34,315 nt of DNA from Pseudomonadota bacterium (lineage in GTDB: Bacteria > Pseudomonadota > Gammaproteobacteria > Arenicellales > UBA868): NCBI GenBank assembly GCA_018672825.1, contig JABHUE010000154.1, positions 1-34,315 on the forward strand. The letters are read 5' to 3'. Below the pieces are notes generated by a model. It did no database searches, was not told the origin of the DNA, and saw nothing but the letters and a program-made list of their open reading frames with translations. Within the stretch, counting starts at the first letter, position 1. Every line of letters starts with the position of its first letter. The translations under genes were made by a program, and so were the position numbers. Shown here one piece after another: positions 3,003-29,686 of the stretch.

Positions 3003-4472
3003 ATGACTGACTTAGAAGCCCACGTTGAACAACCCGGGCGCGCCGAGCTTGTTAAACAGGTTCGGGAAAAAATTAACGCGACTGGCGTCGACTATATTTA
3101 TTATCAATTTATTTCGGTTACTGGCCGCATCGTAGGTAAAGGTATTCCTTCGGCGCATTGGGAGCGAATTGCCGAAAGAGGTTTTCAGTTGGTTTATGGA
3201 TCAACGGCTAACTTATTTGTTGATCGCCATGGAGATTACATCGGCTACGGACCAGAATCTTCGGAACTTGTGGGTATCCCAGATGCTGAAACATTCTGTC
3301 AACTACCGTGGGATAAACGAATTGGTCGTGTTTTTTGCACGCTGTTTCGTAATCGCGAGGAGCGGGATAATCCCGGTGGCGCATTAACTTCAGATTGCCG
3401 TGGGAATTTACGCCGCATTCACAATACATTTCAGGATAAGCATGGACTTGACATGCGATGCGGTACCGAACCTGAAATGATGTGGTTGAAGCGTGGTGAG
3501 GATGGCAAGCCAGATGGTGGGGTGACTAAACCAAATTGCTATCACATCGATCAGTTTGAAGAGCTCCGACCGACCTTTATGAAGGTTATCGAATACTCGC
3601 AACAAATGGGTCTCGACATTATTCAGGGTGACCATGAGGATGCACCAGGGCAGCTTGAGTTAAATACCCAGTTTGACGATGTGCTTCGGAACGCAGACCG
3701 ATTAACCACTTATCGACAAATTTGTGCGCAGGTCGCTCGTGAAGATAACTTGATCGCCTGTTTTATGTCTAAGCCATTTATGGGTGTGTCAGCTTCCGGC
3801 TGTCATCACAATATGTCACTTTGGCGCGGGGGCGAAGATACGGTTAATAATTTGGGCATGGATTCGCTACCGGGTATGGAGGGAGCATTCAGTTACCGGG
3901 TGGGAGGTGAGAATACTTTCATGCCGGATCCATCAATTGATAAACGCGCGCCTGGACCAATCGGACTTAAATGTATTGGTGGCGTTATTAATCATCTCGG
4001 CGCGTTAACCTCTATTGGATCCTCGACTGTTAACTCCTATCGCCGACTATGGGATACCGGGTTCTGGGCACCCATCTTCGCCGATTGGGGATATCAGAAT
4101 CGCACGTGTGCGTTGCGTGTTTCTGCGCCGGGGCGATTTGAGTACCGCTCGGTAGATTCGATGGTGAATCCTTACCTGATGGGATCGGCACTCCTGAAAG
4201 CATTTGATGATGGTATCGATAACAACTTGGAAGCGGGTGAGGCTGAAGAGCGAAATATCTACGAGGCGATCGATGCGGGTAAGGAAGTGAGGAAATTACC
4301 GATGTCGTTGGGTGAGGCGCTGGACGAGTTGCGAAATGATGAAGTCATCAAATCATCGATGCCAGATGAGATGTTCAGAGTATTTGAGCATTACAAGCGT
4401 GACGAGTGGGAACGATTCATGCATACCACCACCGAGTGGGATATGGAGAACTATCTTGATTGTTTGCCATAA
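3003..4472 (+). CDS. Glutamine-synthetase-like amine-glutamate ligase (489 aa)
   Basis: A GS-fold ATP-dependent ligase expected to form a gamma-glutamyl amide. The catalytic signatures are intact: GTEPEM (154-159) and DHEDAPGQLELN (210-221) for metal and glutamate, KPF (257-259) with HHN (268-270) for ATP, NSYRR (344-348), NRT (366-368) and RFEYR (378-382). It is about 55 residues longer than the gmaS product at 28379 and clearly divergent from it, with extra sequence around 275-315 and 405-430. That makes a different amine substrate likely. True nitrogen-assimilating GlnA is less likely given the neighbours: an FAD amine oxidase upstream (72 bases) and the three glutamate-synthase-like genes downstream. 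The start is well supported by AGAGGAGAA just before the ATG. Relatives include GmaS, PuuA and IpuC-type enzymes; the substrate is unknown. Confidence 0.82.
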   Translation: MTDLEAHVEQPGRAELVKQVREKINATGVDYIYYQFISVTGRIVGKGIPSAHWERIAERGFQLVYGSTANLFVDRHGDYIGYGPESSELVGIPDAETFCQLPWDKRIGRVFCTLFRNREERDNPGGALTSDCRGNLRRIHNTFQDKHGLDMRCGTEPEMMWLKRGEDGKPDGGVTKPNCYHIDQFEELRPTFMKVIEYSQQMGLDIIQGDHEDAPGQLELNTQFDDVLRNADRLTTYRQICAQVAREDNLIACFMSKPFMGVSASGCHHNMSLWRGGEDTVNNLGMDSLPGMEGAFSYRVGGENTFMPDPSIDKRAPGPIGLKCIGGVINHLGALTSIGSSTVNSYRRLWDTGFWAPIFADWGYQNRTCALRVSAPGRFEYRSVDSMVNPYLMGSALLKAFDDGIDNNLEAGEAEERNIYEAIDAGKEVRKLPMSLGEALDELRNDEVIKSSMPDEMFRVFEHYKRDEWERFMHTTTEWDMENYLDCLP

Positions 4473-4503
4473 AAATGGTGGCGACCTCGATAGACGATAT
4501 GAC

Positions 4504-4522
4504 TGCCAATCTGTATTTGGCA
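4504..4522 (+). other. Small hairpin between ligase and amidotransferase genes
   Basis: TGCCAA (4504-4509) and TTGGCA (4517-4522) form a 6-bp stem with a 7-base loop in the 91-base gap. There is no T-tract, so it is not a terminator; it could be an RNA-processing or stability element, or chance. Confidence 0.25.
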
Positions 4523-4563
4523 CCTGAATACAAATTTTTAAACGTTAGCGAGGAGAAAATCCT

Positions 4564-5499
4564 ATGTGCGGGATAGCCGGTTTAATTCACCGGGGCAAGA
4601 GTAGCAACGTGGGTCGTGAACTGACAGCGATGCTGCAATCTTTAAAGCATCGAGGCCCAGATTCAACTGGCTTCGCGCTTTATGGCAGCCCAAAATCAGG
4701 AGAACATGTTCTGCGTTTCAAAGTTGCAGAGCAGGAAGATATGCGTCATGGGTTTCAGATTCAGCATTTGGTCAAAGAGCGTCGAGCAGAAGTCGACCGA
4801 CGTTTAGACGAGTTAGGTGCAACACGAGTTGCAGTGGAGGATGCCACGGACTATGCTTTTCGGTATTCGATCTCATATGACGGCGACATGAAGAAGTTGG
4901 CTGACTATGTTGAAGATGTTGAGGGTGCGGAAATCCTCTCGATTGGAAATACCCTTGAATTGATCAAAGATCTTGGAGATGCTGGTCAAGTCTCCAGTCA
5001 ATATGGTCTGGGAGAGTTTGGAGGTACCCATGCAATCGGGCACACTCGAATGGCAACGGAATCGGATGTTGATATTCGTTCTGCTCATCCCTACTGGGCT
5101 TATCCTTTTAATGATATTTCAGTCGTTCATAATGGACAACTTACCAATTATTGGGGATCTCGTCGGGAGATGGAGCGACGTGGGCACCGCTTTATGTCTA
5201 ATTGCGACTCTGAATTGATTGCGGTTTATCTTGCTGACCGCATGGAACGCGGTGACAGTCTTGAAGAGTCTATGCATCGATCTGTAGGTGAGCTGGACGG
5301 CGTGTTTACCTATGTTGTTGCCACCGCTGACAAGCTCGGTATGGCTAAAGATGTCATGGCAGCTAAACCTATGGTGCTTTATGAAAGCGATGAGTTTGTA
5401 GCGTTAGCTTCGGAAGAGGTCGCGATCCGCAGCGTCTTCCCCCATGAAATTGATACATATGATCCATATGAAGGAGAGGTAATGGTATGGCAGAGCTAG
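4564..5499 (+). CDS. Class II glutamine amidotransferase, N-methylglutamate synthase subunit A-like (GlxB/MgsA type)
   Basis: 311 residues. The protein starts Met-Cys-Gly-Ile-Ala-Gly, so Cys2 becomes the N-terminal nucleophile of an Ntn-hydrolase after Met removal. HRGPDSTGFALY, GGTHAIGHTRMAT, HNGQLTNYW and SNCDSELIAVYLAD are the glutamine-binding and catalytic signatures of the glutamate synthase/PurF family. It would release ammonia, or handle a gamma-glutamyl amide, and pass the amine to a partner FMN subunit. An insert of roughly 75 residues (about 60-140) separates it from minimal amidotransferases and is shared with the paralogue at 22289. Its stop overlaps the next gene by 13 bases, implying translational coupling and a stoichiometric complex. 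The start is fixed by the catalytic Cys and by GAGGAGAA upstream. Confidence 0.87.
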   Translation: MCGIAGLIHRGKSSNVGRELTAMLQSLKHRGPDSTGFALYGSPKSGEHVLRFKVAEQEDMRHGFQIQHLVKERRAEVDRRLDELGATRVAVEDATDYAFRYSISYDGDMKKLADYVEDVEGAEILSIGNTLELIKDLGDAGQVSSQYGLGEFGGTHAIGHTRMATESDVDIRSAHPYWAYPFNDISVVHNGQLTNYWGSRREMERRGHRFMSNCDSELIAVYLADRMERGDSLEESMHRSVGELDGVFTYVVATADKLGMAKDVMAAKPMVLYESDEFVALASEEVAIRSVFPHEIDTYDPYEGEVMVWQS

Positions 5500-6332
5500 A
5501 ACAAGATCATGAATCCTATGAATTGGGAATGCACACAGAGCAGCTGAGTGGCAGAACCCAGCAAGTATTTTTTTCCGCCGAAGAATCCGATCACTTAGTT
5601 TATCCTTGGGCGCCTCAGGTTGATTTCGAAAAAACCGCTGAGATCGATGCCAACTCGCTTGATCAGAGAGCTGTTAATCAAGAAATCAGCCGTCTGATGA
5701 ACGAAGGCGTTGGTACCATCACTGTGCGCAATCCTGGCGCTAAACACTCTCTGGGTGTGGGTATCTTGAGTCGTCTGAACCTTCATTTTGATGGGAGCTT
5801 GGGCTATTTTGGTTGTGGGCTGTTGGACGGGCCGAACGTAACGGTGAGTGGGCGTGTCGGTTGGTCCTGCGCAGAAAACATGATGGCGGGAACCGTTGTC
5901 ATCGAGAAAAATGGCGGCTCGACCTTTGGCGCGGCGATTCGAGGTGGCGATCTGGTCTGTAAGGGCGATGTGGGGAGTCGCACCGGCATCGATCAGAAAG
6001 GCGGCACCATTATCGTCGGCGGTAGAACGGGTGCATTCTCTGGATTCATGATGCAGCGGGGTCGTATGGTCGTTCTCGGCGATGCAGGCAAGAATCTTGG
6101 TGATTCGATGTATGACGGCACAATATATGTCGGCGGAGAGATTGCCGATCTTGGTGTTGATGCGGTTGAAGCAGAAATGACTGATCTTGATTGTCACTGG
6201 ATCGAGAGAAAGTTGTCCCAGTATGGACTGGAGGCGCCCAAGGGTGCGAAAAACATGAAAAAAATTGTGTCGGGTAAGCAGTTATGGAACTACGACAATC
6301 TTGAGCCTGCAGAAAAGAAACTTGTACTCTAG
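5487..6332 (+). CDS. GXGXG beta-helix protein, glutamate synthase domain 3-like (GlxC/MgsB type)
   Basis: 281 residues. About residues 75-250 are a right-handed beta-helix of the GltB C-terminal type, with repeated glycine-rich turns (GYFGCGLLDG, TFGAAIRGGD, GGRTGAFSGF, NLGDSMYDG). This domain is structural and joins the amidotransferase and FMN parts of glutamate-synthase-like complexes. The first ~65 residues have no counterpart in the shorter fused version at 23185 and look like a specific extension. It overlaps the amidotransferase gene by 13 bases and is followed 26 bases later by the FMN gene, so the three encode a split synthase. In the N-methylglutamate pathway this corresponds to MgsB. 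Confidence 0.86.
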   Translation: MAELEQDHESYELGMHTEQLSGRTQQVFFSAEESDHLVYPWAPQVDFEKTAEIDANSLDQRAVNQEISRLMNEGVGTITVRNPGAKHSLGVGILSRLNLHFDGSLGYFGCGLLDGPNVTVSGRVGWSCAENMMAGTVVIEKNGGSTFGAAIRGGDLVCKGDVGSRTGIDQKGGTIIVGGRTGAFSGFMMQRGRMVVLGDAGKNLGDSMYDGTIYVGGEIADLGVDAVEAEMTDLDCHWIERKLSQYGLEAPKGAKNMKKIVSGKQLWNYDNLEPAEKKLVL

Positions 6333-6358
6333 AGCAGGCACTGAACAGGAACGAAAAT

Positions 6359-7696
6359 ATGTCAACCAAGAGAAATAAATCTGTCATCGGCCAGAGCTTT
6401 ATGTTCCCGCCAGAGGTTATTGACGACATCCATATCAAAGCTGAGTTGGGTCGATATCGGATGCGCGGTTTTTCACTTTTCAAAAAAATCCCGAGCTGGG
6501 ATGATTTAACTTTTCTCCCGGGCACCTTGACGCGTTTTGTTATCGAGGGTTATCGCGAGAAGTGTCTTACCAAGACCATCATCGGCCCCCGGGCCAAACG
6601 GCCATTGGAATTGGATATTCCGATCTACATCACCGGAATGAGTTTTGGGGCGTTATCCTACGAAGCAAAAACAGCACTGGCGCGCGGCGCAACAATGGCC
6701 GGCACTGCAACTTGCTCAGGGGAAGGAGGAATGATTCCTGACGAGCGTCGTTACTCGGAGAAATGGTTCTATCAATGTATCCAGTCACGGTATGGGTTTA
6801 ACCCCCACCATCTCCGTCTTGCTGACGGCTGCGAGTTCTTTATTGGCCAAGGATGCAAAGTCGGTTTAGGTGGTCATTTGATGGGACAAAAAGTGACCGA
6901 TCAGGTCGCTGAGATGCGATCTTTGCCGGCGGGGATTGATCAACGCTCTCCTGCCCGTCATCCTGATTGGCTAGGACCAGACGACTTGGCGTTAAAAATA
7001 CAGGAAATTCGCGAGGCAACAAATTGGGAGATCCCTATCCAGCTAAAACTTGGAGCCGCAAGAGTCTATGACGATGTGCGGATGGCGGCTAAGACTGATC
7101 CGGATTCAATTTATATCGATGGGATGGAAGGCGGCACTGGTGCAGGACCTCATTTGGCGACGGAGGAGACAGGCGTGCCAGGTATTGCAGCCATTCGTCA
7201 GGCGCGTCGAGCGCTTGAAGATGTGGGTAAGTCAGGTGATATCTCATTGGTTTATGCCGGCGGTATTCGAAATGGTGGTGACGTCGCAAAAGCGCTAGCC
7301 CTCGGTGCTGACGCGGTCGCGATTGGACACTCATCGATGATGGCGCTGAACTGCAATAAAGACATTCCGGAGGCAGACTTCCCGAATGAAATGGGTGTTG
7401 AAGCCGGCAATTGTTATCACTGCCATACCGGTCGTTGCCCTGTCGGTGTTGCGACTCAAGATCCAGAGTTACGAAAGCGATTGGATCCTGACGCAGCCGC
7501 TGAGCGGGTTTATAACTTCTTGCATACCTTGGCAATTGAGTGCCAGATGTTAGCGAGAGCCTGTGGCAAGACTAATGTTCACTCTTTAGAGCCTGAAGAT
7601 TTGGCTGCATTGACCATGGAGGCATCGGCTCTTGCGCAAGTACCGCTTGCAGGTTCGCAGCATACCGTCGGGCGCCCTGACTTGACCCGTTTCTGA
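6359..7696 (+). CDS. FMN/Fe-S glutamate-synthase-like protein (GlxD/MgsC type)
   Basis: 445 residues, matching the FMN-binding central domain of glutamate synthase. Visible are the SFGALSYEAK and GEGGMIPDER stretches, QLKLGAARV, the GGTGAGP loop, the phosphate-binding GGIRNGGDVAKALALGADAVAIG, and a cysteine cluster for a 3Fe-4S centre (C352, C355, C360, with C332 nearby, then PVGVATQDP). The expected role is reductive transfer of an amine onto 2-oxoglutarate, giving glutamate or N-alkylglutamate. With the two upstream genes it makes a three-subunit synthase. No GltD-type electron donor is encoded in this operon; one lies at 25140. A residual N-terminal segment (1-75) resembles the ferredoxin-dependent enzymes' linker. 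Length agrees with known MgsC and GlxD proteins. Confidence 0.87.
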   Translation: MSTKRNKSVIGQSFMFPPEVIDDIHIKAELGRYRMRGFSLFKKIPSWDDLTFLPGTLTRFVIEGYREKCLTKTIIGPRAKRPLELDIPIYITGMSFGALSYEAKTALARGATMAGTATCSGEGGMIPDERRYSEKWFYQCIQSRYGFNPHHLRLADGCEFFIGQGCKVGLGGHLMGQKVTDQVAEMRSLPAGIDQRSPARHPDWLGPDDLALKIQEIREATNWEIPIQLKLGAARVYDDVRMAAKTDPDSIYIDGMEGGTGAGPHLATEETGVPGIAAIRQARRALEDVGKSGDISLVYAGGIRNGGDVAKALALGADAVAIGHSSMMALNCNKDIPEADFPNEMGVEAGNCYHCHTGRCPVGVATQDPELRKRLDPDAAAERVYNFLHTLAIECQMLARACGKTNVHSLEPEDLAALTMEASALAQVPLAGSQHTVGRPDLTRF

Positions 7697-7706
7697 GGAA
7701 AAAATA

Positions 7707-8096
7707 ATGGCTTATGAAAAAGATATTGATCATTTTATAAAAGGCGACGGTCTTGATTCAGAGCGAGAGCAGACGATTGGACAGCATATCGGATATCGAT
7801 ATGATGTAAATCTGGTGCCCGACTATGAACGACTAACGCCATTTCTGAAACGTTATATAGAGACGATGGGATGGCGTGACTTGAATTGGCTTGAGGATGT
7901 CCATATGGGCTACGAAGAAAGTCGACCCGCAGTCTTTGATCGAAATATCAACGGATGGGTGACTATTCCGCCTGAAATCTCACTCCCGGACAATCAACAG
8001 GATCGTGACATGATTGCGCGCGAATTGTTGATCAAGTTCCAAATGTCTCCGGGACATCCGATGGTTGATCTCCGAAAGGCCTACGCCAAGTTTTGA
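7707..8096 (+). CDS. Conserved-looking hypothetical protein, last gene of cluster 1
   Basis: 129 residues, acidic and aromatic, with no signal peptide, membrane segment or cysteine. I do not recognise the family. It starts 10 bases after the FMN protein stop, with GAGGAA as ribosome binding site, so it is translated with the operon. The segment GWRDLNWLEDVHMGYEESRPAVFD is rich in Trp, Asp and Glu and could be a binding surface. No similar gene accompanies the fused synthase set of cluster 2, so it may be specific to the split complex or its substrate. Subunit, chaperone or substrate-binding roles are all possible. Confidence 0.75.
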   Translation: MAYEKDIDHFIKGDGLDSEREQTIGQHIGYRYDVNLVPDYERLTPFLKRYIETMGWRDLNWLEDVHMGYEESRPAVFDRNINGWVTIPPEISLPDNQQDRDMIARELLIKFQMSPGHPMVDLRKAYAKF

Positions 8097-22288: not shown

Positions 22289-23203
22289 ATGTGCGGAATA
22301 GCGGGAGTCATGTATCGCGGTAGCGAGAATTTCGGCACCGGGGAAGCGTTGATCCGTATGCTCGATGGTTGCCAGCATCGAGGACCTGATTCGACGGGCT
22401 TTGCATTGTATTCCCCCGAGCCATCCGGTCAATTAAAGCTCAGATTTTTTATTGATCCTGTCGCAACTGTCGACGTCGATAGCGCCATCGCCTCTATACG
22501 TTCACGGTTACTTGATCTTGGGGCGACGATCGAAGAGGAAGCTAAAGCCGGGGATAATTATCGGGTCACGATTCGGTATACCGGTGATATTCAAAAATTG
22601 TCATATGAAATGGAACACGCGGCGAAAGTGATATCAATTGGTACCAGTCTTGAGATTGTAAAAGATGTGGGTACAGCACATGAAGTTGATGATCGTTATC
22701 AGGTCAATCAGTTTAGCGGGACTCATGGATTGGGTCATGTAAGGCTTGCAACCGAGAGCGATGTAAAACCGGAAGCCTCACATCCTTTTTGGGCGACAGG
22801 GTTTGCAGATGTTGCAATCGTGCATAACGGCCAAATTACGAATTATTGGAAAATGCGCCGCCGCCTGGAGCAAAGAGATTTTGAATTCACCACGGACAAT
22901 GACAGCGAATTGATTGCGGTATATCTTGCCGATAAGATGGCACAAGGGATAGAGCTGAAGGAGGCTCTTGCGAGCTCGATTGATGACTTGGACGGTACTT
23001 TTTCATTTTTAGTTTCTACCGAAAATGAAATTGGTTATGCGAAGGATCGATTGGCCGCCAAGCCTATGATCATGTATGAAGATGATGACCTTGTGGCGAT
23101 CGCTTCTGAAGAGGTTTCTCTTAATCGACTCTTTCCCGGCCGCGCGCTTAATACTCGTGAACCTGCTCCTGGTTCCTTTGCCACATGGTCTCGCTCGATT
23201 TAG
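22289..23203 (+). CDS. mgsA: Class II glutamine amidotransferase, N-methylglutamate synthase subunit A-like (second copy)
   Basis: 304 residues, a paralogue of the protein at 4564 with the same architecture. Cys2 is the nucleophile after Met removal; HRGPDSTGFALY, GTHGLGHVRLAT, HNGQITNYW and DNDSELIAVYLAD are conserved. It would act with the fused GXGXG-FMN protein that follows, whose start it overlaps by 19 bases. The nearby gmaS makes this set the best candidate for N-methylglutamate synthase, acting on gamma-glutamylmethylamide. AGGAAA precedes the ATG. Which of the two sets serves methylamine is inferred from gene order only. Confidence 0.86.
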   Translation: MCGIAGVMYRGSENFGTGEALIRMLDGCQHRGPDSTGFALYSPEPSGQLKLRFFIDPVATVDVDSAIASIRSRLLDLGATIEEEAKAGDNYRVTIRYTGDIQKLSYEMEHAAKVISIGTSLEIVKDVGTAHEVDDRYQVNQFSGTHGLGHVRLATESDVKPEASHPFWATGFADVAIVHNGQITNYWKMRRRLEQRDFEFTTDNDSELIAVYLADKMAQGIELKEALASSIDDLDGTFSFLVSTENEIGYAKDRLAAKPMIMYEDDDLVAIASEEVSLNRLFPGRALNTREPAPGSFATWSRSI

Positions 23204-25143
23204 CGAAGTTGAGTGTCCGTGATGCGAACACTCAACTTCGAAAACTAGGAGAGGAAGGCGAAAATATAGAAGTTCTGAATCCAGACGCTCGACACCACAT
23301 TGGTGTTGGTCTGACGGCACCTGTTGATGTGATGGTAAAGGGGTCTGCTGGATATTTTTGTGCGGGACTGACAGATCAGGCGCGATTTACAGTAACCCAT
23401 AACGTCGGGTGGGGCGTGGGTGACAATATGTACTCGGGGTCTGTGGTTGTGGGAGGTAACGCAGGCGCGATTCCCGGAGTCGCGATCCGAGGCGCCGAAA
23501 TCGTGATTAAGGGGAACATGGGATCTCGCGCCGGGCAGGTGATGAAGGCAGGCACTTTGTGCTGTGCTGGTAATGCGAATTTCATGGCTGGATACATGAT
23601 GTATGGCGGCCGAATTATCATATTAGGTGATTCCGGTGAGAGACTCGGCGAGGACATGTCGAGCGGCGAGATTTTTGTGGCGGGCAAAGTCCAAGATCTT
23701 GGATCGGACGCGATGCTGACCGATATCTCTCAATCGGAAGTAGATTCTCTTTGCGAATTTCTCGACCGGTACGAGATTAAAGCGCCCAAAAGTTTTTCGA
23801 AAGTCATCAACGCGGGGACCAAGCTTCGATATGGCACCCCTGAGCGACCGATGCGAAGTATCCCGTTCAGCAGTTTTTCAGGCGCGTCCTCTTATTGGAA
23901 TCCGAAAGTGCAAGAAGATGTGGTGATCAAGTCGCAGAGCGGGCGGTATCGAATTCGAGGTTACGGTGGCGCTCGTCCGCTGCCACACCTAAGCGATATC
24001 GGCTTTCGTAAGAATCTTGAGAATGCGGGAAGTGACCGTAATGTTGTGCAAAGCGTAGAGATGGCAACAGAGATCGGCGGTATCAATGGGGCACGACCGC
24101 TCAAACTGAGCATGCCAGTCATGATTGCGCCAATGAGTTATGGCGCTCTTAGCCGATCGACAAAATATGCGATCGCCATGGGTTCTGCAATGTCAGGAAT
24201 CGCTGAGAATACGGGCGAAGGCGGAATGAGCGATGCGCAACGTGACGCTGCAGGCCAACTGATTTTTCAGTGCCTTGGCGGGCGACTGGGATGGAATATC
24301 CATGATATGCGGCGAGCAGACGCACTTGAGATCTACATTTCGCAGGGTGCGAAGCCCGGACTGGGTGGCCAATTAATGGCCAAAAAAGTGACGCCTGAAT
24401 TAGCTGAGATCCGAGGAATTCCATCGGGCATCGATCTTCGGTCTCCGTCAAGACATCCCGATATTTTAGGCGCGGATGATCTGGTTATTAAGGTCGAGGA
24501 GTTCCGTGAGGCCACTGGCTATGAAGTGCCCATAAGCGTCAAATTGGGTGCCGGACGGATTCGCGATGACATCAAAATCGCCTCTAAAGATGGCTTTGAT
24601 TTTGTCGAACTGGACGGAATGCAAGGTTCGACCGGTGCGGGTAGCGCTGAAGTCATCGACAACGTTGGCATCCCAACGCTTCCTGCAATCATTGAAGCTA
24701 TTGAAGCGCTGGAAGAGATCGGCGCGCGAGAAAAAATTCAGTTGGTATTAATGGGTGGCCTGCGGGATGGCGTCGACGCGGTGAAAGCCTTGTGCCTTGG
24801 TGCTGATGCGGTTGCTTTTGGGACTTCAGTCATAGTGGCGGGCGGTTGTATCTCATGCATGCAGTGTCATGTGGGTCAGTGTGTCACTGGGATTGCAACT
24901 CAGGATCCAGAGCACGAGAAGCGTTATAAGCCTGAGATCGAGGCTAGCAATATTCACAGATTCCTTGAGAGTGTTCGATGGCAAATCGCCGCACTCACCG
25001 ACGCACTCGGTTACAACGATGTTAAAAATTTGAGCCGCGATGACTTGGTGGCTTTAACCCCTGAGGCTGCGGACATCACGGGCCTGCCATATGAACCGGT
25101 AGTGAGCGCGTCTGTGATGCAAGAAGAAGGTATTAACGCATGA
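23185..25143 (+). CDS. Fused GXGXG + FMN glutamate-synthase-like protein (MgsB-MgsC fusion)
   Basis: 652 residues. Residues 1 to about 215 form the GXGXG beta-helix (GYFCAGLTD, GAIPGVAIRGAE, ANFMAGYMMYGGR, RLGEDMSSGE); about 235-652 form the FMN domain (PMSYGALSRSTKYA, NTGEGGMSDAQRD, GSTGAGS, GGLRDGVDAVKALCLGADAVAFG). The Fe-S cysteines are C555, C558, C561 and C566. In the usual N-methylglutamate synthase these are two proteins, as at 5487 and 6359; here no stop or frameshift separates them, and the linker (215-235) is smooth. The domain order is reversed compared with GltB, where FMN comes before GXGXG. The next gene overlaps by ATGA, so coupling is tight. Expected activity is FMN-dependent amine transfer to 2-oxoglutarate. 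Confidence 0.87.
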   Translation: MVSLDLAKLSVRDANTQLRKLGEEGENIEVLNPDARHHIGVGLTAPVDVMVKGSAGYFCAGLTDQARFTVTHNVGWGVGDNMYSGSVVVGGNAGAIPGVAIRGAEIVIKGNMGSRAGQVMKAGTLCCAGNANFMAGYMMYGGRIIILGDSGERLGEDMSSGEIFVAGKVQDLGSDAMLTDISQSEVDSLCEFLDRYEIKAPKSFSKVINAGTKLRYGTPERPMRSIPFSSFSGASSYWNPKVQEDVVIKSQSGRYRIRGYGGARPLPHLSDIGFRKNLENAGSDRNVVQSVEMATEIGGINGARPLKLSMPVMIAPMSYGALSRSTKYAIAMGSAMSGIAENTGEGGMSDAQRDAAGQLIFQCLGGRLGWNIHDMRRADALEIYISQGAKPGLGGQLMAKKVTPELAEIRGIPSGIDLRSPSRHPDILGADDLVIKVEEFREATGYEVPISVKLGAGRIRDDIKIASKDGFDFVELDGMQGSTGAGSAEVIDNVGIPTLPAIIEAIEALEEIGAREKIQLVLMGGLRDGVDAVKALCLGADAVAFGTSVIVAGGCISCMQCHVGQCVTGIATQDPEHEKRYKPEIEASNIHRFLESVRWQIAALTDALGYNDVKNLSRDDLVALTPEAADITGLPYEPVVSASVMQEEGINA

Positions 25144-27674
25144 CTGTATACAATCTTGACCGTATTAGCGTTCCGGTCACCCCGCCCGGATTTTCTGACG
25201 ATACATCCGATCTACATTATGTGCCGGCACCTTGTCAGGTCGCTTGCCCCGTAGGAACCGATGCGCCGTCCTATATCGGTTATATCTGGGAGCAGAAGTA
25301 CGCCGAAGCTTTCGAAGCGATAACCGCAACCAATCCTTTCAGTTCAATCTGCGGGCGCGTTTGTGACGCGCCGTGTGAGCCCGCCTGCCGGCGGGAGAGC
25401 AGTGACGGCGCAGTACAGATTCGCAATTTAAAGCGCTTTGTAATGGATAAGTTAGGGCGGGACGCACCGATCACAAAATATGAAGTATCACGAGAACAGT
25501 CCGTCGGTATTGTCGGTTCAGGCCCTGCCGGATTAACTGCCGCTTTCGAGCTCTGCAAGGCGGGGTTCGCGGTTGATATTTATGAGATGACCGATCGCTT
25601 GGGCGGTACTATGGTTTGGGGAATACCCCAGTTTCGACTGCCTGCAGGCGTTATTGAGGAAGATATTGAGCGCTTGCAGAAACAGTGCTTGGGTTTGACA
25701 GTGCACCTCAATACGTCACTGGGCTCAGCAATATCGCTTGATGAGCTGAAATCTCGCCACAACGCTGTGTTGCTTACGATTGGAGCTTGGTGGGGTAAGC
25801 CGATGGGTGTTGCGGGGGAAGATCATCCCCAGGTTGAAGACGGCGTTAGCTTTCTTCGTCGAATTAATGCAGGCGAGCGCCCTCACATGCCCGAAACCGT
25901 TGTCGTTGTTGGCGGAGGAGATGTTGCAATGGATGCCTGCCGAGCAGCACTTCGTCTTCCAGGGTGTAAGTCAGTCAAAGTTGTTTATCGTCGCGGGCCT
26001 GATGAGATTCCTGCGCGGAAGATTGAGCTGCATCATGCGCAAAAAGAGGGTATTGAGTTTATTTACAACACGCTTCAAACGGGAATCGAAGCTGACGGTG
26101 ATGACCTGTTACTCCGATGTGTTCATACCGAGGCGGGTGCACCCGATGAAGATGGGCGTCGATCTCCTGTGATTGTTGATAACAGCGAACACCATATTCA
26201 CTGCGGAATGATTATTGCTGCAGTGGGCCAGAAAGGCGTTAGCGAAGCTTTGGATGTAGATGGATTAATGTCGGGAGACCGGGTCGCAACTGATTATTCA
26301 ACGATGCAAACCAGCGACCCCCAAGTGTTTGCCGCGGGCGATGGTGCTTTCGGCGGGTCTACCATTGTGATGGCGATGAATCACGGACAGCGTGCAGCGT
26401 ATTACATTAAGGCCGCGCTAGATAACGTTGAAAACCCTATTGCATACCGTACGCCGTATCGCACTCGCCACGTACCGGTTGCGCAAGATCTTGAATGGGA
26501 GCAGTTTGCACTTGAAGAGCCCGTTTTTCATGGTGTCGGTGAGAAGCCTGAAGCTTTTCCGGAGATTGAGGATACCTATGATGAGTCTGCTGCCCGCCGT
26601 GAGGCCGCTCGATGCTATCGGTGCGATGCGGAGACGGGTTCGACGGACTACTCTGTTAGGCATCGTGAAGATCTTTTTTCAATGGCTAGAACCCATCCGC
26701 AAGATACTGCCAAGCATCAAGCAATGCTGCAGCGCCGGCTACTGAATCGTGAAAATCCCTATCCGTCAGAGCGTCCAGCGTCGCTCGATGACCTGGTTTT
26801 CTTACCTGCGAACTTGTCTCGACTGGTTATTGATCCCTACCGTGAGGCCTGTCGGATTGATATCTCGCTCTCGCCCGATGTCTTATTGAAGCAACCGTTT
26901 TTAATAGCCGGACTTGACCAAGCTCCCGAAGAAGTTAGACGATCTGCATGGCATGCAGCCAATGAAAATGGCGTGGGTGTCATCAGTCAAACCGCGCCTG
27001 ACGACAAATCCAGATGGTTTCAAATTCTGGACGCCAACAACACCCCTGATCAAGAGGCCGCTGGATGGATTCAGCCCTGGTCAGAACTCTTATCACCCAT
27101 CGACCGGCGCGACAATGCGCCATTAAAAGGGATTTCGGTAAAGCATCCTGATGATATCAGCGCCGTTCTTGATGTTGCGCTCGATCAGAATTATCAATTT
27201 CTTTTTTTAGACGCTACGGGTGGCAATGCAGACTGGGCGAGCGAACTCATGAATCAACCACGTTTCGAATTACTATCAGAGACTGTAATCGAAATGCGTC
27301 GTCGAAAAAAAGAAGAAGCGCTGGTATTAATTTATAGCGGGGGAGTCCGCTCCGGAACTGACGCAGCGCGTTTGATTGCGCTAGGGGCAAACGCTGTGGT
27401 TTATGGTGTTGCAGCTGCGTTGGCGCTGGGCGGTGAGATTGGCCAATCTCAAATTGAGTGGAGATCCGATCGCGCTCCGGGTGAGCGGACGGATGGTCTT
27501 ACGTCGATTCTTAATGCCCACGCTGGTGAGGCGTCAATGATGGCGCGTTGTACGGGTAAAACATGCCTTCACAACCTTGAACCTGAAGATCTTCGAAGCG
27601 TAACTTTGGCGACCAGTGCGGCCACAAATATTCCGGTTCCCGGCCATAACGTGACACGCGCCCGATTGCTCTAA
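25140..27674 (+). CDS. GltD-like NAD(P)H reductase fused to a degenerate FMN glutamate-synthase domain
   Basis: 844 residues. The first ~495 are a glutamate synthase small-subunit-like flavoprotein: N-terminal 4Fe-4S cysteines (C32, C36, C71, C75, C79, C83), FAD motif GSGPAG (126-131), NAD(P)H motif GGGDVA (258-263) and second FAD site AAGDGAFGG (398-406). About 545-844 align by eye with the FMN domain at 6359: LPANLSRLVIDPYREAC, IYSGGVRSGTDAARLIALGANAVVYG and CLHNLEPEDLRSVTLATSA. This part lacks the SFGALS and GEGGM loops and the 3Fe-4S cysteines, so it is probably not catalytic. The protein likely delivers electrons to the fused MgsB-MgsC partner, the C-terminal part serving as docking module. 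It overlaps its neighbours at both ends (ATGA, TAATG). Canonical GltD ends near residue 480. Confidence 0.86.
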   Translation: MTVYNLDRISVPVTPPGFSDDTSDLHYVPAPCQVACPVGTDAPSYIGYIWEQKYAEAFEAITATNPFSSICGRVCDAPCEPACRRESSDGAVQIRNLKRFVMDKLGRDAPITKYEVSREQSVGIVGSGPAGLTAAFELCKAGFAVDIYEMTDRLGGTMVWGIPQFRLPAGVIEEDIERLQKQCLGLTVHLNTSLGSAISLDELKSRHNAVLLTIGAWWGKPMGVAGEDHPQVEDGVSFLRRINAGERPHMPETVVVVGGGDVAMDACRAALRLPGCKSVKVVYRRGPDEIPARKIELHHAQKEGIEFIYNTLQTGIEADGDDLLLRCVHTEAGAPDEDGRRSPVIVDNSEHHIHCGMIIAAVGQKGVSEALDVDGLMSGDRVATDYSTMQTSDPQVFAAGDGAFGGSTIVMAMNHGQRAAYYIKAALDNVENPIAYRTPYRTRHVPVAQDLEWEQFALEEPVFHGVGEKPEAFPEIEDTYDESAARREAARCYRCDAETGSTDYSVRHREDLFSMARTHPQDTAKHQAMLQRRLLNRENPYPSERPASLDDLVFLPANLSRLVIDPYREACRIDISLSPDVLLKQPFLIAGLDQAPEEVRRSAWHAANENGVGVISQTAPDDKSRWFQILDANNTPDQEAAGWIQPWSELLSPIDRRDNAPLKGISVKHPDDISAVLDVALDQNYQFLFLDATGGNADWASELMNQPRFELLSETVIEMRRRKKEEALVLIYSGGVRSGTDAARLIALGANAVVYGVAAALALGGEIGQSQIEWRSDRAPGERTDGLTSILNAHAGEASMMARCTGKTCLHNLEPEDLRSVTLATSAATNIPVPGHNVTRARLL

Positions 27675-28318
27675 TGACGGCTCGCCCGACGAGATCGGTG
27701 CCAGCACTTGAACGGGACTCGTCCACTGTGGAGGGCAAAGCCAAGCCGCTTGAAGATGCGATTGGCCGGCAGGTGCATGTTTATCGAACCCAGCTCGGGA
27801 TGACGATTTCCAATCTCGCTCATCAGTCAGGGGTTTCGGCGGGAATGCTGTCGAAAATTGAGAATGGTCAGACGTCGCCGTCGCTCAATACGTTGCAGTT
27901 GCTTGCGGCCGCGTTAAATGTGCCGGTGACTGCGCTTTTTAGAAAATTTGAGCAAGAACGCGAAGCTTCTTTTGTTCGAGCAGGACAGGGCTTGGTGATC
28001 GATCGGCGCGGGACTCGCGCGGGACATCAGTATCACTTGCTGGGCCATTCGGTGGGTGATCGTGCAACGCTGGTCGAGCCCTATCTAATTGTGATCTCGG
28101 AACCATCCGAAGTGTTTTCGCTTTTTCAGCATGAAGGGGTTGAATTTATCTATATCCTGGAGGGAGAGGTGGTTTACCGACATGGATCCCGGCTTTACCC
28201 GATGAGTGAAGGGGACTCATTATATTTTGATGCGGATACGCCTCATGGACCCGAGGAATTGGGCAGGCTTCCTATTCGATTCTTGTCATTCATCGTTGAG
28301 CCTCAATCAGACTCATGA
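27674..28318 (+). CDS. XRE-family regulator with C-terminal cupin sensor domain
   Basis: 214 residues. A helix-turn-helix of the Cro/XRE type (about 34-88, with SNLAHQSGVSAGMLSKIENGQ) is followed by a cupin_2 domain (about 130-205, EGVEFIYILEGEVVYRHG and DADTPHGPEE). This architecture is common for regulators of amine, amino acid and polyamine catabolism, such as PuuR. Its ATG overlaps the stop of the reductase gene (TAATG), and gmaS begins 60 bases later, so it is probably an autoregulating controller of tmm-gmaS genes sensing a pathway intermediate. Ligand unknown. Confidence 0.9.
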   Translation: MTARPTRSVPALERDSSTVEGKAKPLEDAIGRQVHVYRTQLGMTISNLAHQSGVSAGMLSKIENGQTSPSLNTLQLLAAALNVPVTALFRKFEQEREASFVRAGQGLVIDRRGTRAGHQYHLLGHSVGDRATLVEPYLIVISEPSEVFSLFQHEGVEFIYILEGEVVYRHGSRLYPMSEGDSLYFDADTPHGPEELGRLPIRFLSFIVEPQSDS

Positions 28319-28378: not shown

Positions 28379-29686
28379 ATGGCAGTCAATCTCGCCGCGG
28401 TCGCTAAACAAAGAAAGATAAAGTATTTTTTGATTAGTTTTGTTGATCTATTTGGGGTCCTGCGCTCCAAGCTGGTGCCGGCCCGCGCAATCGGGCAGAT
28501 GCAGCGGGACGGCGCCGGGTTTGCAGGTTTTGCTGCGTGGCTAGATATGACGCCCGCACACCCCGATCTGTTTGCGGTTCCAGATCCTGCGAGTTTGATC
28601 CAACTGCCATGGAAGCCCGAGGTCGCCTGGCTTGCGGGTGACCTCGTTATGGACGGCAAACCTGTTCAGGCATCTCCACGCGTGGCGCTAAAAAACCAGA
28701 TCGCGTCGGCGGCAAAAGAGGGTATGCGACTGAAAACCGGGGTCGAGTGCGAGTTTTTTCTGGTGAGTCCAGATGGGATGTCGATCGCTGATGCCAGCGA
28801 TACTCAAGAAAAACCTTGCTACGATCAGTCTGCACTGATGCGTCGCTATGACGTAATTAGCGAGATTTGCGATTGCATGATTGCTTTACGGTGGAATCCT
28901 TATCAAAACGATCATGAGGATGCTAACGGGCAGTTCGAGATGAATTGGGACTATGACGATGCGTTAGTCACCGCTGATCGACACGTTTTCTTTAAATATA
29001 TGGTTAAGTCTATTGCTGAAAAGCATGGCCTGAGAGCGACCTTTATGCCCAAGCCCTTTCTGAATCTGACTGGGAACGGCTGTCACGCGCATGTTTCAGT
29101 ATGGGATAAGTCGGGCAAGAAGAATCTTTTTATCAGCAAATCAGATAAGTTGGGTTTGTCAAAAATGGCGTATAAGTTTCTGGGAGGCGTATTGCACAGC
29201 GCAGACACGCTAGCGGCCATATTTAATCCAACGGTTAACAGCTACAAGAGAATCGACGCACAGGTCACCTCGTCTGGTGCAACCTGGTCACCGAACGCGA
29301 TCACTTATGGCGGCAACAACCGAACCCATATGGTTCGGGTGCCAGATGTTGGTCGATTTGAGATGCGTTTAATGGACGGTGCGGTTAACCCCTACTTATT
29401 GCAGGCCGGCATATTGGCCGCGGGTCTTGATGGTGTGGCTAATGACCGTGATCCGGGTAAACCGTCATCGCTGAATATGTATACCGAAGGTCATAAAGCG
29501 ACCGGGGTTCGACGCCTGCCGTCCAACCTGCTTGACGCCATAAGGTTGTTCGAAAAAAGCAAGGTGCTTCGTGCGACTCTTGGCAATGAACTGGTCAATA
29601 GTTACGCCAAGCTGAAACATCAAGATTGGCGCAGTTACAGTGCGGCGATCAGTCAATGGGAGCGGGACAACACGCTCGACTGCTAA
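28379..29686 (+). CDS. gmaS: Gamma-glutamylmethylamide synthetase
   Basis: 435 residues, the usual GmaS length. Joins methylamine to glutamate with ATP. GS-fold motifs are intact: GVECEFFL (121-128), NDHEDANGQFEMN (177-189), MPKPF (223-227), GNGCHAHVS (232-240), NSYKR (287-291), NNRTHMVRVP (313-322) and RFEMR (326-330). The N-terminal FVDLFGVLRSKLVPA and GAGFAGFAAW stretches match GmaS from Methylovorus-type enzymes as I recall them. GGAGGA precedes the ATG. Its position in the same run as tmm and the second synthase-like set supports the role in the N-methylglutamate route. Type III GS/GlnT is the nearest alternative. Confidence 0.93.
   Translation: MAVNLAAVAKQRKIKYFLISFVDLFGVLRSKLVPARAIGQMQRDGAGFAGFAAWLDMTPAHPDLFAVPDPASLIQLPWKPEVAWLAGDLVMDGKPVQASPRVALKNQIASAAKEGMRLKTGVECEFFLVSPDGMSIADASDTQEKPCYDQSALMRRYDVISEICDCMIALRWNPYQNDHEDANGQFEMNWDYDDALVTADRHVFFKYMVKSIAEKHGLRATFMPKPFLNLTGNGCHAHVSVWDKSGKKNLFISKSDKLGLSKMAYKFLGGVLHSADTLAAIFNPTVNSYKRIDAQVTSSGATWSPNAITYGGNNRTHMVRVPDVGRFEMRLMDGAVNPYLLQAGILAAGLDGVANDRDPGKPSSLNMYTEGHKATGVRRLPSNLLDAIRLFEKSKVLRATLGNELVNSYAKLKHQDWRSYSAAISQWERDNTLDC

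Follow-up and report, generated by a model that had tools for sequence, protein, structure and literature searches.

A GltD-type reductase carrying a degenerate FMN glutamate-synthase domain in a trimethylamine catabolism cluster

The stretch of DNA analysed here, referred to as the window, spans 34,315 nucleotides on contig 48 of a gammaproteobacterial genome (G000) and carries a cluster for trimethylamine and TMAO catabolism. The cluster includes tmm (NF058570, 827 bits) and a gene for TMAO demethylase (NF053776, 1226 bits), as well as genes for a betaine-type ABC transporter, folD, fhs and amt. Two sets of GltB-like genes are found within it, at 3003-7696 (set 1) and at 22289-27674 (set 2). 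Set 2 consists of an amidotransferase gene, a gene in which GXGXG and FMN domains are fused, and a gene for an 844-aa protein; these are followed by a gene for an XRE-cupin regulator and by gmaS (Table 1).

Set 1 begins with a glutamine-synthetase-like gene, followed by homologues of mgsA, mgsB and mgsC. The synthetase stands in the place of gmaS and scores far under the gmaS cut-off (284 of 470 bits). The same set occurs in a similar cluster of another genome (G361, locus L060), where the synthetase is 90% identical. At the head of set 1, positions 1587-2930 encode an FAD-dependent oxidoreductase of the DAO family without an NCBIfam match at 1e-20, which might serve in the oxidation of the N-alkylglutamate made by set 1. 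Two further open reading frames of the window, at 7707-8096 (129 aa) and 46-546 (166 aa), have no Pfam match at E 0.001.

Table 1. Genes and protein segments of set 2 and of the region directly 3' of it, given as positions in the window.
Feature	Position	Strand	Basis or remarks
Class II glutamine amidotransferase (MgsA-like), 304 aa	22289..23203	+	N-terminal MCGIAG; GATase_6, 72 bits
Fusion of GXGXG (MgsB-like, residues 35-174) and intact FMN glutamate-synthase domain (residues 302-611), 652 aa	23185..25143	+	GXGXG, 48 bits; Glu_synthase, 321 bits
844-aa reductase with pseudo-FMN domain	25140..27674	+	ATG start; 4-base overlap (ATGA) with the 652-aa gene
GltD/NfnB-type FAD/Fe-S module, residues 30-495	25227..26624	+	Pfam/NCBIfam, solved structures, motifs
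N-motif FLPANLSRLVIDPYREAC, residues 554-571, near-invariant	26799..26852	+	Common to MgsC; not in the FMN domain of the 652 type
Eroded barrel core, residues 572-727	26853..27320	+	Without catalytic, FMN-ring and Fe-S motifs; amino-acid change faster than elsewhere in the chain
Retained phosphate-binding-type loop LVLIYSGGVRSGTD...LGANAVVYG, residues 728-756	27321..27407	+	Pfam, conservation
Conserved C-terminal tail MMARCTGKT..HNLEPEDL, residues 800-835	27537..27644	+	Common to MgsC
XRE-family helix-turn-helix and cupin regulator	27674..28318	+	HTH_3, Cupin_2
gmaS, gamma-glutamylmethylamide synthetase	28379..29686	+	TIGR03105, 677.7 bits (cut-off 469.6)

The amidotransferase encoded at 22289-23203 is the first subunit of the set 2 complex. 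It is 45% identical to the MgsA-like protein encoded at 4564-5499 in set 1, and its gene lies 5' of the 652-type gene in every locus whose sequence reaches that far. The 652-aa fusion is the catalytic subunit, with its Fe-S cysteines and all catalytic motifs kept, the N-motif of MgsC lost and the tail reduced. Modules homologous to MgsA, MgsB and MgsC, the FMN motifs intact, are thereby spread over 22289-25143; the central domain PF04898 has no Pfam match in the set 2 proteins. The XRE-cupin gene is co-oriented with the operon and is probably its regulator, and relatives of it are found in the neighbourhood of loci L005-L008, L010, L020, L022 and L060. The product of gmaS aligns with the solved GmaS 7cql at 632 bits and keeps the catalytic residues: on reading the alignment, its YQNDHEDANGQFEMNWDY, GATW and GGNNR stretches correspond to Asp177, Glu186, Trp300 and Arg312 of 7cql.

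In the initial annotation, residues 1-495 of the 844-aa protein were described as a complete GltD-like flavoprotein, and residues 30-495 do match GltD-like families and solved GltD (2vdc_G, E 4e-62, aligned over 32-435). The best NCBI family, PRK12771, reaches 383.6 bits over residues 29-495, below its cut-off of 516, and the NCBI cut-offs for GltD are likewise missed (TIGR01316, 255 of 472 bits; TIGR01317, 188 of 448; TIGR01318, 242 of 483). Fer4_20 (PF14691, 80 bits) and FAD and NAD(P) Rossmann domains (Pyr_redox_2, PF07992, 97 bits) are present, together with the FAD motif GSGPAG, the NAD(P) motif GGGDVAMD, AAGDGAFGG and the Fe-S cysteines C32, C36, C71, C75, C79, C83, C492 and C495. The nearest solved structures are the formate dehydrogenase subunit 9bov and NfnA 9n5u, and GltD-like subunits of this PRK12771 type, associated with NfnA and formate dehydrogenase (9n5u, 9bov, 8oh5), are the closest solved relatives of residues 30-496. 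In all three the module closes with EAxRCxxC, as it does here at C492 and C495. Since only C32 and C36 precede C71-C83, these last two cysteines may complete the first Fe-S cluster. In contrast to the 9bov type, in which the module is followed by those proteins' own C-terminal parts, it runs here into a dead FMN domain.

Profile comparison identifies residues 496-844 as a degenerate FMN glutamate-synthase domain (hereafter the dead domain), homologous over its whole length. The HMM search against Glu_synthase (PF01645) proposed in the initial annotation gives a match above the cut-off (21.3 against 20.4 bits) for residues 495-844. As a comparison of sequence with profile this match is not full-length and covers only profile positions 259-313 of 369, the phosphate-loop region. 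The same profile is matched at E<0.01 by 17 of 21 relatives. Blastp against the MgsC of the window (6359-7696) returns two segments spanning residues 548-843 (1e-16 and 4e-7), and hhalign of a profile of the 21 relatives against FMN synthase domains aligns 302 columns (99.2%, E 1.2e-19).

Motifs were tabulated from a joint alignment of 46 domains, 16 of them dead. SFGALS, GEGGM, QGxKxGxGG, RHPD, the KxGA lysine, GGTGA and the Fe-S cysteines are absent from all 16 dead domains, which bears out the earlier description of a C-terminal FMN-domain pattern without SFGALS, GEGGM and Fe-S cysteines. The N-motif FLPANLSRLVIDPYREAC (with at most one substitution), the GGxR(S/T)GTD loop and the tail ARCxGKT..NxEPED are kept in every one of the 16.

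An AlphaFold2 model of the dead domain alone has a confident barrel core at about residues 574-804 (pLDDT about 90); judging from the secondary structure, the barrel seems to lack several helices. Residues 563-836 of this model match FMN alpha-hydroxyacid oxidases such as flavocytochrome b2 and mandelate oxidase (Foldseek E 4e-10; VIA Z 20, rmsd 3.3 over 227 residues). The fold is alike, but most of the similarity in sequence falls in the phosphate loop, and the dead domain is without the synthase-type catalytic motifs. No solved glutamate synthase is among the 50 Foldseek/VIA matches listed, which does not speak against a kinship, as large chains may come further down such rankings. In the model of the full-length 844-aa protein, which has a pTM of 0.49, the linker (residues 498-570) is predicted with low confidence, and the placement of the domains is not fixed. 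Low model confidence in a near-invariant linker fits a segment that is ordered only in a complex, or it could stem from a shallow alignment.

Segment-wise identity to the stand-alone MgsC of set 1 shows a reciprocal loss, in which the dead domain kept the N-motif and tail and the 652-aa domain kept the core. Identity to this MgsC is 0.57 for the dead domain against 0.12 for the 652-type domain in the N-motif, 0.13 against 0.46 in the core, and 0.53 against 0.35 in the tail. Within the dead-domain family, identity is 0.95 in the N-motif and 0.35 in the core; among 652-type proteins the values are 0.43 and 0.81. For a distant FMN type, FMN540, identity to the set 1 MgsC is 0.37 over the tail and 0.22 over the N-motif, so ordinary divergence may account for some of the 652-type difference. 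By this yardstick the contrast in the tail is the weaker one, and that in the N-motif exceeds plain divergence. Judged from these alignments, the duties of one ancestral subunit seem to be divided between the 652-aa and 844-aa chains.

The dead domains form a single branch with 100/100 support in a midpoint-rooted tree, in which the branch is long and the exact sister group is not fixed, and the dead and 652 clades are placed apart. This single clade, the hhalign homology and the motif loss give good support to the earlier term 'pseudo-catalytic copy'. The initial annotation likened the pattern to that of the neighbouring synthases; the dead domain is closest to the stand-alone MgsC and not to the 652-aa FMN domain. 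A copy of the adjoining 652-aa FMN domain was rejected as the origin, as the kept segments are nearer to stand-alone MgsC and the tree separates the clades.

Substitution patterns indicate that the dead domain is under purifying selection, its ends constrained and its core drifting. Between the window and a 94% relative (L005), Ka/Ks is 0.03 for the reductase half, 0.01 for the linker with the N-motif, 0.14 for the core and 0.11 for residues 496-844. Against L006, L008 and L022, for which synonymous sites are saturated, Ka is 0.11-0.12 in the linker, 0.12-0.18 in the reductase half and 0.40-0.54 in the core.

Scanning 84,980 species genomes for peptide patterns recovered at least 21 relatives, a lower bound because the scan requires exact peptide words. 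They come from Alpha- and Gammaproteobacteria, from Gemmatimonadota and from a single MAG of the Pirellulales (Planctomycetota); single MAG contigs among them can be misbinned. For L017, L018 and L024, found on Gemmatimonadota/Pirellulales MAG contigs, either horizontal transfer or misbinning may apply. A phylum-wide sample yielded no further genome, and a plasmid search returned one ordinary FMN synthase only. We rejected the reading of the 844-aa frame as a pseudogene or an assembly error, its length and motifs recurring in more than 20 contigs, including that of the single-contig genome G044. In that genome of 2.4 Mb the three-gene operon stands alone (L059, G044:C1:612000-631900), and tmm has no match.

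Among 369 gammaproteobacterial genomes, a full-length dead domain is found in six (G000, G044, G093, G214, G265 and G361), and the 652-type protein (at least 973 bits) in exactly the same six. This co-occurrence is not an effect of the query, because the reverse search used the 652-aa protein. The 652- and 844-type genes are adjacent in every locus with upstream sequence and mostly overlap or lie a few bases apart. The initial annotation had proposed a survey of other tmm-bearing genomes for the same fusion; the tie to tmm is a loose one, as only two of the six genomes have tmm above its cut-off and all six have gmaS. In five of the six, the window genome, G093, G214, G265 and G361, gmaS lies directly 3' of the operon.

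Set 2 has the modules of GltB/GltD (2vdc, 6s6s, 7mfm), namely a class II amidotransferase, an FMN barrel with Fe-S cysteines, GXGXG and an FAD/Fe-S reductase, but distributes them among three chains, places GXGXG before FMN and carries a dead FMN domain on the reductase. With MgsABC of Methylobacterium, Methyloversatilis and Roseobacter (glxBCD in SAR11) it shares amidotransferase, GXGXG and FMN modules of the GltB type and the link to gmaS (PMC6237917, PMC3160333). The two belong to the same paralogue family, but set 2 alone fuses GXGXG and FMN in one chain, and it adds a GltD-type reductase subunit bearing a dead MgsC-type domain. Described operons contain mgsABC, gmaS and mgdABCD and no dedicated reductase subunit (PMC6237917, PMC13390433); set 2 departs from this content with an 844-aa reductase inside the operon. 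When mgsABC and gmaS were moved into Pseudomonas putida, mgsABC worked there without a dedicated reductase (PMC6237917), so a dedicated donor is no general need and set 2 is a variant. A literature search of partial coverage found no paper on such a fusion of a reductase and a dead FMN domain.

Many gammaproteobacterial proteins of the MgsC/GlxD type (L033-L041, L049) have lost the Fe-S cysteines, with, for example, YDDWHEGRDPAG replacing CHHCHTGxCPVG. Without the cluster, an FMN synthase of this type would lack an obvious connection to a donor of the GltD type. The MgsC-type proteins of L032, L047 and L051 keep the cysteines, and those of L032 and L051 are gmaS-adjacent.

In GltB/GltD, electrons pass from NAD(P)H to FAD, then through Fe-S clusters to FMN. 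With slightly better than even confidence, we read 22289-27674 as encoding a three-chain, reductase-equipped enzyme of the N-methylglutamate-synthase type, whose dead domain is an obligate assembly subunit pairing with the FMN domain of the 652-aa chain. The pairing or docking of these domains, the substrate, the NAD(P)H donor and the direction of electron flow are features that we infer. In the proposed route, GmaS would make gamma-glutamylmethylamide (GMA), from which the amidotransferase chain would free methylamine. Methylamine and 2-oxoglutarate would condense at the FMN site of the 652-aa chain, and the imine would be reduced to N-methylglutamate. Electrons would travel from NAD(P)H to the FAD and Fe-S clusters in residues 30-495 of the 844-aa chain, and from there would reach the Fe-S cluster and the FMN in the 652-aa chain. 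The dead MgsC-type domain would have arisen once, retaining the N-motif, tail and phosphate-type loop of an ancestral MgsC-type subunit, and would stand in for a second MgsC subunit against the 652-aa domain, placing the reductase beside its acceptor. Docking onto the 652-aa partner, as the initial annotation suggested, gains indirect support from the shared six of 369 genomes, the adjacent genes and the complementary segment losses. A further reading, held tentatively and at somewhat below even confidence, is that reciprocal loss divided an ancestral FMN synthase subunit into a catalytic half, the 652-aa chain, and a dead half joined to the reductase in the 844-aa chain. The dead half would then supply the N-motif and tail in trans, neither chain would work alone, and the complex would be an NAD(P)H-coupled N-methylglutamate synthase.

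N-methylglutamate is the likeliest product of set 2, because gmaS is genuine and adjacent in five of the six genomes and each of the six also holds an ordinary GltB. The presence of this ordinary enzyme in every genome is also the reason for rejecting set 2 as the housekeeping glutamate synthase. Against this product, gmaS of G044 adjoins a stand-alone mgs set about 90 kb away from the operon, and the contigs of several relatives show no gmaS in the available neighbouring sequence. These loci, and a domain content equal to GltB plus GltD, would suit an NADPH glutamate synthase in split form that uses glutamine and ammonia, a reading that is rather doubtful given the ordinary GltB, the gmaS adjoining the operon in five of the six genomes, and the MgsA, MgsB and MgsC homologues, which are its closest paralogues in the window.

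It is unlikely that the dead domain is a ligand sensor, in which the GGxR(S/T)GTD...LGA loop would bind a phosphate ligand (FMN, a nucleotide or a sugar phosphate) and regulate electron entry. No part of the barrel is better kept than this loop, in which G734, G735, R737, G739, T740 and D741 are invariant and which gives rise to the FMN_dh, Glu_synthase and IMPDH matches. That a loop of the FMN-phosphate-binding type is invariant hints at ligand binding having been kept, and the regulatory role first suggested beside docking may apply. However, the core of the barrel varies (0.35 identity among family members), no conserved residue pattern for a ring or base is found beyond the loop, and GGxRxGxD may be structural.

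Self-pairing of the dead domain, or its pairing with the stand-alone MgsC set (4564-7696), would make the 844-aa chain a shared reductase and is distinctly improbable. The N-motif and tail of the dead domain do resemble stand-alone MgsC, and both sets share one cluster in the window and in G361, but presence of the 844-type protein tracks the 652-type protein exactly, and G096, G225 and G316 have the set 1 MgsC type without an 844-type domain. That the dead C-terminus is a decaying passenger without function is barely credible: the core does evolve faster than the reductase half and all catalytic motifs are lost, but few other parts of the protein are conserved as well across phyla as the ends of the domain, Ka/Ks over residues 496-844 is 0.11, and the length is kept in all full-length members.

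For marine bacteria the N-methylglutamate route is one of the main ways of using methylamine. The redox cofactor of N-methylglutamate synthase (NMGS) has been stated to be unknown (PMC6237917), and a GltD-type reductase built into the synthase operon points to NAD(P)H as the donor. If the assembly reading of set 2 is true, an NAD(P)H-coupled synthase would name the redox partner of the N-methylglutamate pathway in these bacteria. The reciprocal loss between dead and live domains would then also be an unusually clear example of a pseudoenzyme domain turned into an obligate assembly part.
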